Assembly: GCF_000696095.1 (NCBI RefSeq)
Contig: NZ_BAYX01000002.1
Location: 434,001-498,000, forward strand
Source of the DNA: Rhizobium rhizogenes NBRC 13257
GTDB taxonomy: Bacteria; Pseudomonadota; Alphaproteobacteria; Rhizobiales; Rhizobiaceae
Length of the DNA stretch: 64,000 nucleotides
Direction: 5' to 3'
In this document: in pieces, positions 56,116 to 59,214 of the stretch
How positions within the stretch are numbered: position 1 is the first letter of the stretch
Layout: each line of letters opens with the position of its first letter
Position numbers and translations under genes: made by a program
The notes under the pieces: model-generated
Told to the model about the DNA's origin: nothing
Database searches by the model: none
Seen by the model: the letters and a program-made list of their open reading frames with translations, nothing else

Positions 56116-57009
56116 ATGAAGAAGCGTATTTTGTTCACCGGCGGCAGCGGCAAGGCCGGGCGTCACACGGTTCCCTGGCTGGTCGAAGCCGGCTACGAGG
56201 TCCACAATATCGATCTCGTGCCGCTGAACAGCCCCGGCGTCACCAATTTGCAGGCCGATGTCACTGATGCGGGACAAGTTTATAACGTCCTCACCATGCA
56301 TCGTGATTTCCCCGATCTCAATCAGGGCAAGGGCGTGCAACCCTATGACGCCGTGGTGCATTTCGCCGCCGTGCCGCGCATCCTCTTAAAGCCGGACAAC
56401 GAGACCTTCCGCATCAACACGATGAGCACCTATAACGTCATCGAAGCGGCGGCGAAGCTCGGCGTCAAGAAGATCATCGTCGCCTCCAGCGAGACCACCT
56501 ATGGCGTCTGCTTCGCCGAGGGCCATCGCGATTTCCACCAGTTTCCGCTGGAGGAGGACTATGATGTCAATCCGATGGATTCCTACGGCCTCTCCAAGGT
56601 CCTGAATGAAAAGACGGCCCGCGCCTTTGCCGAACGCTTCGGCATCGACATCTATGCGCTGCGCATCGGCAACGTTATCGAGCCGCATGAATATGAGCGC
56701 TTCCCGGAATTTTTCGCCGATAGCGAAATCCGCAAGCGCATCGCCTGGAGCTATATCGACGCCCGCGATCTTGGCCAGATCGTCCATCTCTGCATCGAAA
56801 AGAGCGGCCTCGGCTTCCAGGTGTTCAACGCCGCCAATGACACGGTGTCGGCCAACACGCCGTCGCGCGAACTCGCGGCCAAGCACTTTCCGAACGTGCC
56901 TTTCACCCGCGAGATCGGCGAATATGAAGGCCTGCTCTCCAACCGCAAGATCCGCGAGGTCCTCGGCTTCAAGGAGGAGCATGACTGGCGGCGTTATGTG
57001 AAGGTTTGA
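56116..57009 (+). CDS. NAD-dependent epimerase/dehydratase (SDR family)
   Basis: A 297-residue extended SDR. The nucleotide-binding motif TGGSGKAG is at 7-14, a DLV acidic residue follows strand 2, and the catalytic SSETTYG and YGLSK motifs (near 118 and 157) are present. The length and SETTYG pattern fit sugar-nucleotide or uronate-type epimerase/dehydrogenase enzymes, but the substrate cannot be read. The ATG at 56116 has a perfect AGGAGGAG site. Two probable sugar transferase genes follow 325 bases later, hinting at a glycan role (inference). Confidence 0.85.
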   Translation: MKKRILFTGGSGKAGRHTVPWLVEAGYEVHNIDLVPLNSPGVTNLQADVTDAGQVYNVLTMHRDFPDLNQGKGVQPYDAVVHFAAVPRILLKPDNETFRINTMSTYNVIEAAAKLGVKKIIVASSETTYGVCFAEGHRDFHQFPLEEDYDVNPMDSYGLSKVLNEKTARAFAERFGIDIYALRIGNVIEPHEYERFPEFFADSEIRKRIAWSYIDARDLGQIVHLCIEKSGLGFQVFNAANDTVSANTPSRELAAKHFPNVPFTREIGEYEGLLSNRKIREVLGFKEEHDWRRYVKV

Positions 57010-57334: not shown

Positions 57335-58021
57335 ATGAACGACGGTGTTGCACGTATTTTTGTCGGCTTCGACTCTAAGGAAGTTGTCGCCTATCACGTT
57401 CTCGCACAAAGCATAATCGAGCGCTCCTCGATCCCGGTGGTGTTTTCGCCGATCGTGCTCAGCAATCTCGAGGGCGTTTTCACGCGCGAGCGCAATCCGT
57501 TGCAATCGACCGAGTTCTCCTTCTCCCGCTTCCTGGTTCCCTACCTCAGCGATTTCGAGGGCTGGAGCATCTTCATGGATTGCGACATGCTCGCCCGCGC
57601 CGATATTGCCGAGCTCTGGAAGCTGCGCGACGATCGCTATGCCGCCATGTGCGTCAAGCACGATTACCAGCCGAAGGTCGAAACCAAGTTCCTCGGCCAG
57701 ACCCAGACCAAATATGAGAAGAAGAACTGGTCGAGCATGATCCTGTTCAACAATGCCAAGTGCAAGGCATTGACGAAGGATTTCGTTAACACAGCCACCG
57801 GCCTTCAACTCCATCAGTTCAAGTGGCTGGAAAGCGACGATCAGATCGGCGAGGTTCCCGTGACTTGGAATTATCTCGTCAACGAGTACGATCGCCGTGA
57901 AGACGCCAAGCTCGTGCACTTCACCGATGGCGGGCCGTATTTCGACGAGTATCGCAACGACGATTATGCCGACGAATGGTTCGCCATGCGCGACCGCCTA
58001 TTGCACGTCCAGCAGAAATAA
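57335..58021 (+). CDS. Probable glycosyltransferase (GT-A, GT8-like)
   Basis: A 228-residue protein that reads as a small GT-A-fold glycosyltransferase. It begins RIFVGFDSKEVVAYHVLAQS, has SFSRFLVPYLSDFEG and the metal-binding DxD at 82-84 (FMDCDMLARADI), and a conserved-looking NWSSMILFNNAKC and TWNYLVNEY segment with a late HFTDGGPYF, similar to the acceptor region of GT8 enzymes. No signal peptide or membrane segment. The ATG at 57335 has TTAGGAGGGACC. It is 18 bases from the next gene, so they form one unit. Confidence 0.78.
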   Translation: MNDGVARIFVGFDSKEVVAYHVLAQSIIERSSIPVVFSPIVLSNLEGVFTRERNPLQSTEFSFSRFLVPYLSDFEGWSIFMDCDMLARADIAELWKLRDDRYAAMCVKHDYQPKVETKFLGQTQTKYEKKNWSSMILFNNAKCKALTKDFVNTATGLQLHQFKWLESDDQIGEVPVTWNYLVNEYDRREDAKLVHFTDGGPYFDEYRNDDYADEWFAMRDRLLHVQQK

Positions 58022-58039: not shown

Positions 58040-58924
58040 GTGACATCGGAAACAGCGACCGACAAGCCTGCTTTCCCGGCAGCGGGAGCCGCGGCAGGTC
58101 TGACGACTGCCGAGGAGTGGCGCTCCATACTGACTGCGTTTTCCCATATCGTCCTTGTCGCCAACAGTGACACGGTCGATATCGGGAGCCTTCAGGCGCA
58201 GTATCCGTCGACCGCCCTCTTCGTCTTCTTCAATAAAGTCTACAAGGTGCTGGATCGCCCCTTCCTCGGGCACTCGCTGCTGATCTCGCGCGGCCAGCCG
58301 CGCGGTGCCAACATCGTCTATCGGGGCGAGGTGGGCGAGGTGGTAAAGTTTTTCCCCAGGGAATATTTCCTCGGCATCATGAACATTCGCCTCGGTCTCG
58401 AGGAGAAGCTCAATCCCGCCGCTGATTTCCAGGGCGCGCCGACCGGCCATCTCGATCTCGTCGGTTTCTGCGGTGATCTCTACACGGAGGCCAAGACGCC
58501 AACCAGCGGCTTTGCCCTGGCGCTTTGGCTGAGCGATCTGAAATTGCCCGGCGCCATCGTGCTGGCCGGCTTCTCGGCCAAGCGCAGTGAAAAGTGGAGG
58601 GTGGTCTCGGTCCACGACTGGAGCTTCGAGCAGACCTTCCTGCGTCTCTTCGCTCGGCTGGGCAAGATCACTATCCATGGTGGCGTTTCCGCCAATGCCT
58701 ATACCCGGCTTGCCGAGCGCTTCTCGGAGGTTCCGCCCGCCGAAATTTCGTTGGCGGTGGCGGAAGTGCTGTCCGAGCGGCTGGGCAATACCGATGCCCA
58801 GGTCGACAAGCTGATTTCACTGACCAACGTGATTCGCTCCACGGACAATTTCCTGCGCCGTTTGCGGCCGAAATTTCTGAAGGGGAAGCCCAAGGGGACG
58901 CCCGGCGAGCAGAAGGAAGGCTAA
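58040..58924 (+). CDS. Possible sialyltransferase-like (GT29-type) sugar transferase
   Basis: A 294-residue protein without signal peptide. I cannot assign a family confidently. Its order of motifs resembles GT29 enzymes (including LPS Kdo transferase WaaZ-like proteins): LVANSDTVDIG near 39-49 with FFNK at 63-66 (motif L-like), PTSGFALALWLSDLKLPG near 154-171 ending in AGFS (motif S-like) and HDWSFE at 192-197 (HxxxxE). GTG start at 58040, 18 bases after the GT8-like gene. A basic tail (RRLRPKFLKGKPKG) suggests membrane association. Inference from motif order only. Confidence 0.45.
   Translation: MTSETATDKPAFPAAGAAAGLTTAEEWRSILTAFSHIVLVANSDTVDIGSLQAQYPSTALFVFFNKVYKVLDRPFLGHSLLISRGQPRGANIVYRGEVGEVVKFFPREYFLGIMNIRLGLEEKLNPAADFQGAPTGHLDLVGFCGDLYTEAKTPTSGFALALWLSDLKLPGAIVLAGFSAKRSEKWRVVSVHDWSFEQTFLRLFARLGKITIHGGVSANAYTRLAERFSEVPPAEISLAVAEVLSERLGNTDAQVDKLISLTNVIRSTDNFLRRLRPKFLKGKPKGTPGEQKEG

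Positions 58925-59138: not shown

Positions 59139-59214
<76 letters not shown>

Follow-up and report, generated by a model that had tools for sequence, protein, structure and literature searches.

Gene pair and surroundings

The window (the whole 64-kb stretch of DNA analysed here) carries an intact, complete open reading frame with a GTG start that encodes a protein of 294 aa. The protein has a catalytic-type domain (approximately residues 21-216) and, C-terminal to it, a helical extension whose tail is basic. A GT8-like gene on the same strand ends 18 bases before the GTG. The features of the locus, including the motifs within the 294-aa protein, are as follows.

56116..57009, + strand: NAD-dependent epimerase/dehydratase (PF01370, by Pfam), context
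57335..58021, + strand: GT8-like glycosyltransferase, 228 aa, conserved partner (sub-threshold match to PF01501; phrog_28018, E 5.6e-46)
58040..58924, + strand: putative GT29-like glycosyltransferase (relatives, predicted model, fold neighbours, profile match)
58157..58171, + strand: L-like motif, first part, VANSD, residues 40-44 (N42 and S43 in 59/59 aligned members; placed on GN of bacterial GT29 by a forced full-length alignment)
58226..58237, + strand: L-like motif, second part, FFNK, residues 63-66 (R-x-N of GT29 is here F-F-N; N65 in 47/59)
58499..58510, + strand: S-like motif, first part, PTSG, residues 154-157 ([TS][TS]G in 59/59)
58568..58573, + strand: S-like motif, second part, GF, residues 177-178 (G in 58/59, F in 59/59)
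58613..58630, + strand: VS-like motif, HDWSFE (HX4E), residues 192-197 (H, W and E in 59/59)
59139..59214, + strand: tRNA-Trp, 3' of the gene pair, context

By our reading of the frames, the pair is flanked by tuf and nusG, and a frame 5' of the pair is presumably GrpB-like. In loci L001-L024 and L077 the epimerase/dehydratase gene lies close to the pair; all other loci compared lack it there. No recognised Kdo gene adjoins the 294-aa gene within the 64-kb window, and a promoter and terminator scan around the gene gave results at about chance level. A role in anti-phage defence was rejected, as the 294-aa protein had no match to the PADLOC defence profiles at E 1.

Searches of genome contigs found 99 relatives, of which 80 were kept, each matching at least 253 of the 294 residues. 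The host has a Rhizobium-type genome, and the closest named relatives found are from Rhizobium sp. ICMP 5592 (98%) and R. rhizogenes OV677 (97%); by record names, the 80 extend to Rhizobium, Sinorhizobium/Ensifer, Agrobacterium vitis, Aureimonas, Jiella and others. Plasmid relatives were present in 73 records, 63 of them from Sinorhizobium, and added Paracoccus to this range. The gene is carried by 55 of 297 genomes of the host's family, and in a class-wide draw of 289 genomes the host's own genome was the sole carrier. No relative was found among the phages and viral contigs searched, and a phage or mobile origin was rejected on this basis. Five of the 55 carriers have two family copies within a few kb of each other (L113, L114 and L127; G390:C18 and G462:C346) while genome G497 has two on different contigs; such paired copies suggest duplication and specialisation.

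The GT8-like partner falls just short of recognition by Pfam (PF01501, E 1.6e-4, 21.8 bits against a cut-off of 24.3), as does an Ensifer homologue at 23.2 bits. It is present at 79 of the 80 loci and is on the same strand and within 300 bases of the 294-aa gene in 62. GT8-like matches at E 1e-20 occur in 80 of the 297 genomes of the host's family; the linkage counts took in the 42 genomes with a copy at least 75% identical, plus one divergent adjacent copy. Of these 42 close copies, 40 lie within 5 kb of the 294-aa gene and 35 within 300 bases, and 41 of the 42 genomes carry the 294-aa gene (Fisher p 4e-37, uncorrected for shared ancestry). A close GT8-like copy is missing from 14 of the 55 carriers. 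The linkage is thus near-obligate for the GT8-like gene, strongly confirming the pairing that had been proposed from the window alone. As the order and strand of the pair vary between lineages, the link is not merely one inherited operon.

Sequence family, motifs and predicted fold

The curated libraries searched do not recognise the 294-aa family. The window protein gave nothing significant against Pfam or NCBIfam. Among 35 family members searched against Pfam, only three families were matched, by one member each (E 0.04-0.16); PF00777 (GT29) matched none of the 35, the window protein included, and the GT42 family was absent from their matches (E 10, filters on). The best NCBIfam match of any member was at E 0.015. 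Searches of the PDB by phmmer and by profile gave no significant sequence match (best E 1.2), and a search with one 62-aa piece found nothing.

A first alignment (A1, 35 members) combined the window protein and its relatives from 34 kept loci out of 80; we then added 24 further relatives, mostly distant, to give a 59-row alignment in which identity to the window protein ranges from 20.7 to 88%. Residues N42, S43, F63, F64, G157, F178, H192, W194 and E197 are invariant in all 59 members, position 155 is T or S in 59/59, the pattern [TS][TS]G is found in 59/59, G177 in 58/59 and N65 in 47/59. As these residues persist while identity falls to about 21%, the positions singled out by the original prediction are under strong constraint. 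That prediction had read an L-like motif (VANSD...FFNK), an S-like motif (PTSGF, 154-158, and AGFS, 176-179) and HDWSFE in the order of GT29 enzymes, and this order is borne out by both the positions and the conservation. Two of the sialylmotifs of GT29 are recognisable as such: motif VS (HX4E), with H192 and E197 in 59/59 members and in register with GT29, and motif S (P-S/T-T-G...GF). At the position of the motif-L arginine, however, the family has F in 59/59 members, followed by F-N in 47 (F-F-N) and by F-T or F-G in the other 12 (F-F-T/G).

Profile comparisons required a set of bacterial GT29 proteins. PF00777 is matched above cut-off in 9 of 398 genomes of the phylum, including the host's own, which has a second, Pfam-recognised GT29 gene (G000:C47:300988-301455; L107, L129) at 24.7 bits against a cut-off of 23; by our reading of the frame, this paralogue lies near a GT25-like frame. 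Eight homologues of the paralogue were added from rhizobial and methylobacterial plasmid records (8 of 25 records). For comparison with the 59-row family, L105 and L106 were left out of the nine PF00777 matches; a 13-member set, A2, left out L103, L105, L106 and L138. PF00777 is matched at E <= 0.1 by eleven of the 13 A2 proteins (best 9.3e-13), with the first member at 19.8 bits and so below the cut-off of 23, and the A2 profile matches ST3Gal1 (E 6.2e-11), ST6GalNAc2 (E 5.7e-7) and ST6Gal1 (E 2.1e-6) in the PDB. The identification of this bridging set as GT29 is therefore well supported at the profile level.

GT29-like proteins also turn up under other names. In S. meliloti Ak57, one annotated as a 'urease accessory protein' (L134:2063-2713) is encoded among the urease genes: ureC lies on one side, and the gene for the beta subunit, accompanied by an LprI-like gene, on the other. 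Other rhizobial GT29-like proteins bear the name 'Urease operon accessory protein', which looks like either a wrong name or an unexplained operon link.

The 59-row family matches the ten rhizobial-type GT29 proteins at E 9.7e-8 (probability 94.3) and all 15 bacterial GT29 proteins at E 8.4e-8, and A1 matches A2 at E 1.7e-6 (probability 89.9) and the nine PF00777 genome matches at E 1e-4 (probability 57.7). Against the five other bacterial GT29 proteins alone, four of which come from one same-class family, the value was E 0.0092. As controls we used 13 other families from the same loci, each with at least four near-full-length members, although three of these (memb, hyp13083 and GT9617) may share the fold; the best gave E 0.0036, while the best of 100 column-shuffles gave E 0.014 and the reversed alignment 0.63. 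The profile alignment places PTSG on PSTG, AGF on CGF and H192 and E197 on the histidine and glutamate of motif VS, and in a forced full-length alignment VANS falls on GN and FFN on RFN of motif L. The C-terminal half alone matches at E 1.5e-10 while the N-terminal half, with the L motif, is not significant alone (0.0093 and 0.019), so that the profile homology to GT29 is a matter of the S and VS motifs.

These results support homology of the 294-aa protein to bacterial GT29 at the level of sequence profiles, which are the deciding evidence on the relationship. A profile-profile search against GT29, proposed with the original prediction as a check, has thus given a significant match to bacterial GT29 proteins, and the sialyltransferase-like reading is supported by this match, by the invariant histidine and glutamate of HX4E and by the fold neighbours described below. 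As the family fails PF00777 and has F at the motif-L arginine, we call it GT29-like and stop short of placing it within GT29.

The AlphaFold2 model of the 294-aa protein (pLDDT 82, pTM 0.74) is good enough to use, with weak stretches at residues 1-9, 184-189 and 281-294. In a Foldseek search of the PDB, the first four rows are GT29 enzymes (6apl, E 2.4e-3, probability 1.00; 2wnb, probability 0.91), although TM-scores for these rows are low (0.35-0.40) and no PDB match falls below E 0.001. Comparison by VIA gave CstI of family GT42 (2p2v; Z 10.4, rmsd 3.9, 184 aligned), ST6GalNAc2 (Z 10.3, rmsd 3.6, 180 aligned), ST8SiaIII (Z 10.1, rmsd 3.8, 182 aligned), ST3Gal1 (Z 9.8, rmsd 3.5, 173 aligned) and ST6Gal1 (Z 9.5, rmsd 3.8, 174 aligned), with GT29 structures overall at Z 9.1-10.3. 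In a library of viral structures, the best match was an uncharacterised protein (E 8.2e-7) and a 'Glycosyltransferase family 29' protein was third (E 2.0e-3). The predicted fold is that shared by GT29 and GT42, though the pterin pyrophosphokinase HPPK ties with them at Z 10.0. Superposition, likewise proposed as a check, has therefore placed GT29 and GT42 enzymes at Z of about 10 without separating them from HPPK. The 'GT-B-variant' fold originally expected was wrong, as GT29 and GT42 enzymes are described as having a GT-A-like variant fold (PMC11288761, PMC5811610).

Because HPPK (8sd5; Z 10.0, rmsd 3.5, 159 aligned) and SteA (9hmz; Z 9.4, rmsd 4.0, 156 aligned) lie in the same Z range as the sialyltransferases, fold alone cannot tell a glycosyltransferase from these proteins, and the 294-aa protein could instead be one of the pyrophosphokinase-like proteins with this fold (HPPK/MptE, thiamin pyrophosphokinase, SteA). 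We regard this as very improbable given the profile match to GT29 with PTSG, GF and HX4E in register, the placing of GT29 first by Foldseek, and the neighbours in Sinorhizobium, which are glycosyltransferases and a sugar-phosphate isomerase. We regard the 294-aa family as a variant within the sialyltransferase superfamily, one that goes unrecognised by the curated libraries searched.

Donor sugar and the Sinorhizobium cluster

Our preferred reading, to which we would give a probability of about 0.6, is that the 294-aa protein, distantly related to the sialyltransferases of animals, attaches an acidic sugar (probably Kdo) to a glycan on the surface of root bacteria. The donors of GT29 and GT42 sialyltransferases are sugars activated with CMP, and in GT29 the site for the CMP-sugar is framed by the equivalents of N42, of the TSG turn and of HX4E. 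We infer the enzymatic activity, the residue roles, the CMP-Kdo donor, inversion, the acceptor, the product and the choice of capsule or lipopolysaccharide in the following scheme. The protein would have a single domain, be either soluble or attached peripherally to the membrane, and act as a glycosyltransferase of the GT29/GT42 type within the sialyltransferase superfamily, with the GT-A-like variant fold. N42 and the TSG turn (155-157) would bind a CMP-activated 3-deoxy-ulosonic acid, with CMP-beta-Kdo as the most likely donor. The HX4E histidine, H192, which we take to be the catalytic base from the role of its counterparts in GT29 and GT42 enzymes, would act as general base. Transfer would be inverting, and the acceptor would be a surface glycan reached from the cytoplasm. 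The adjacent GT8-like enzyme may act in the same pathway by adding a neighbouring hexose. A Kdo-containing capsule is as good a target as lipopolysaccharide.

The fold and motifs are those of sialyltransferases, and a nonulosonic donor (sialic, legionaminic or pseudaminic acid) has therefore to be weighed. NeuB is found in 59 of 297 Rhizobiaceae genomes, 10 of which are carriers of the 294-aa gene. However, the host's own genome, which is 100% complete by table, has no match to NeuB at E 0.01 by a search that was positive in 9 of 14 control genomes, and so should make none of these acids by the known route. NeuB is also absent from 45 of the 55 carriers, and its frequency in carriers (10/55) and in non-carriers (49/242) indicates that carriage is independent of NeuB (Fisher p 0.85, uncorrected for ancestry). 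A nonulosonic donor is thus quite improbable. The sugar had originally been proposed as 'Kdo or sialic-acid-like': the lack of NeuB in the host narrows this towards Kdo.

The host genome does have genes for the use of Kdo, with one clear KdsB (contig C32, E 7.9e-45), one clear WaaA and KpsC/KpsS-type genes (PF05159; six matches listed, several of them pieces of one frame). We favour CMP-Kdo because NeuB is absent, because KdsB, WaaA and Kps genes are present, because a KpsF/GutQ gene lies near the Sinorhizobium orthologue and because the plant enzyme RCKT1 offers a precedent; if the protein does use a CMP-sugar, CMP-Kdo is likely to be the one.

Several Sinorhizobium, Ensifer, Rhizobium and Paracoccus plasmid records give orthologues the product name of CMP-Kdo synthetase (3-deoxy-manno-octulosonate cytidylyltransferase). 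This identity is hardly credible and was rejected: neither the window protein nor any of the 35 family members matches CTP_transf_3 (PF02348), the whole of S. meliloti 1021 pSymB, orthologue included, has no PF02348 match at E 0.01, and the clear KdsB of the host genome is elsewhere (C32). The second PF02348 match in the host genome is, by our reading, in a GlmU-like frame, and the third is under the cut-off.

It is also conceivable that the fold and active-site frame have been kept for another donor, such as CMP-Dha or a UDP- or GDP-sugar. The replacement of R-x-N in motif L by F-F-N (47/59) or F-F-T/G (12) would fit such a change. The donor may also differ within GT29: Arabidopsis GALT29A has galactosyltransferase activity. 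It is named as belonging to GT29 (PMC11288761). However, little or no variation is seen at N42, in the TSG turn or in HX4E, and we consider a different donor unlikely.

The Sinorhizobium orthologue lies in a glycosyltransferase cluster near a gene for a KpsF/GutQ sugar-phosphate isomerase, which is the type of enzyme that starts Kdo synthesis. KpsF is present in 7 of 11 Sinorhizobium-type clusters; the other four show none in the fetched stretch. The next gene encodes a second SIALYLTRANSFERASE-like fold, in a protein named 'membrane-anchored protein' (L093:8829-9551). Its model (pLDDT 87.3, pTM 0.87) matches CstII by Foldseek (E 6.0e-6) and CstI at Z 14.0 (rmsd 4.1, 197 aligned), followed by SteA at Z 12.1 (rmsd 4.3, 167 aligned) and HPPK at Z 11.8 (rmsd 4.3, 161 aligned). 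An alignment of 17 of the 24 listed members of its family (A3) gave no significant match to the GT29 set A2 (E 0.0041), and we do not claim this protein as a sequence relative of GT29. The host genome has one copy, at C53:52224-52943, away from the 294-aa gene; tests for the remaining cluster genes gave nothing in its vicinity, apart from one distant family that cross-matched the same gene. Two further proteins of the same Ensifer cluster (L093:9617-10522 and L093:13083-13814) contain GSGPS/GSAPG strings, the first with a weak MptE-like match (E 3.1e-4), and may be further members of the sialyltransferase-like fold.

In S. meliloti 1021 the orthologue is at 588354-589187 of pSymB. The NCR247 competitiveness of capsule-gene mutants is reportedly a finding for which PMC5539429 cites Muller 2009. 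Mutations in rkpA, kdsB2, smb20804 and smb20805, affecting the Kdo-homopolymer capsule, raise competitiveness under NCR247, SMb20804 and SMb20805 each being named once in that paper (PMC5539429). Capsule genes SMb20823-SMb20841 span 21.2 kb (PMC4468178), and we read frames at about 609-637 kb of pSymB as RkpZ/Kps-like. With roughly one gene to each kb, the expected place of SMb20804 and SMb20805 would be near 588-592 kb and, by this interpolation, the orthologue and its GT42-like neighbour lie where these two genes would fall.

A tentative and somewhat doubtful extension of the preferred reading is that the family is an unrecognised Kdo-transferring branch of GT29, that the S. meliloti orthologue and its GT42-like neighbour belong to the kdsB2/smb20804/smb20805 set and that 'kdsB2' is a transferase rather than a CMP-Kdo synthetase. 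An inverting enzyme of GT29 type would give alpha-Kdo, but the capsule is reported to have a beta-(2-7) linkage, and this mismatch speaks against the orthologue as the chain polymerase. As GT29 enzymes invert, a role in a linker or in adding alpha-Kdo would be likelier than one in the beta-(2-7) chain if the orthologue is in this set.

Two other placings on pSymB were considered. The msbA2 operon was rejected as a neighbour, as SMb21188 is at 938 kb (PMC3687685) and the copy at 588 kb. The polysaccharide cluster that protects against phazolicin is smb21252-smb21271 (PMC10128002), and nodP2 borders the smb21248 cluster (PMC5498481); the NodP-like string SGGKDS occurs in no listed frame of at least 180 aa between 540 and 638 kb, and we found no tie between the copy and smb21252-smb21271.

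Comparison with known systems

The bacterial GT29 (PF00777) proteins share with the window family the S-like PTSG...GF and HX4E in register and the GT-A-like variant fold. The window family differs in having no PF00777 match, F-F-N for R-x-N, a spacing of 14 residues from F to H where bacterial GT29 proteins have 8, and a helical extension at the C-terminus that ends in a basic tail. CstI and CstII of Campylobacter (GT42) are in the same fold range (CstI, Z 10.4), but no GT42 Pfam match is found in the window family. The 'membrane-anchored protein' shares the sialyltransferase-like fold and often the same cluster; it is nevertheless a separate sequence family with GSAP...CSNG...GHxYN motifs.

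LpcB is a rhizobial core Kdo transferase. Along with WaaA (GT30), KpsC/KpsS, WbbB (GT99) and WaaZ, it shares the proposed donor, CMP-Kdo, with the window protein; no family of such enzymes is among the Pfam matches of the 35 members searched. Kdo transferases of the GT30 and GT99 families are grouped as such in PMC5811610.

Public records give the family a misleading or empty name, so that a likely rhizobial Kdo transferase of surface glycans is easily overlooked. If our reading is correct, the 294-aa protein would be a small equivalent, in bacteria, of RCKT1, the GT29 Kdo transferase of plants, and would offer a testable route to how enzymes of the sialyltransferase fold pick Kdo or sialic acid. 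Arabidopsis RCKT1/MGP2 is a GT29 protein described as a putative CMP-Kdo transferase for RG-II, with predicted Golgi localisation; mutant callus lacks RG-II Kdo, the plant has little if any sialic acid, and the in vitro assay is called challenging (PMC11288761). Both are sialyltransferase-like proteins for which Kdo is the probable sugar, and both come from organisms in which sialic acid is scarce or absent. They differ in that RCKT1 is a plant enzyme with 32% identity to ST3Gal1 (PMC11288761), whereas the window protein has no sequence match in the PDB.
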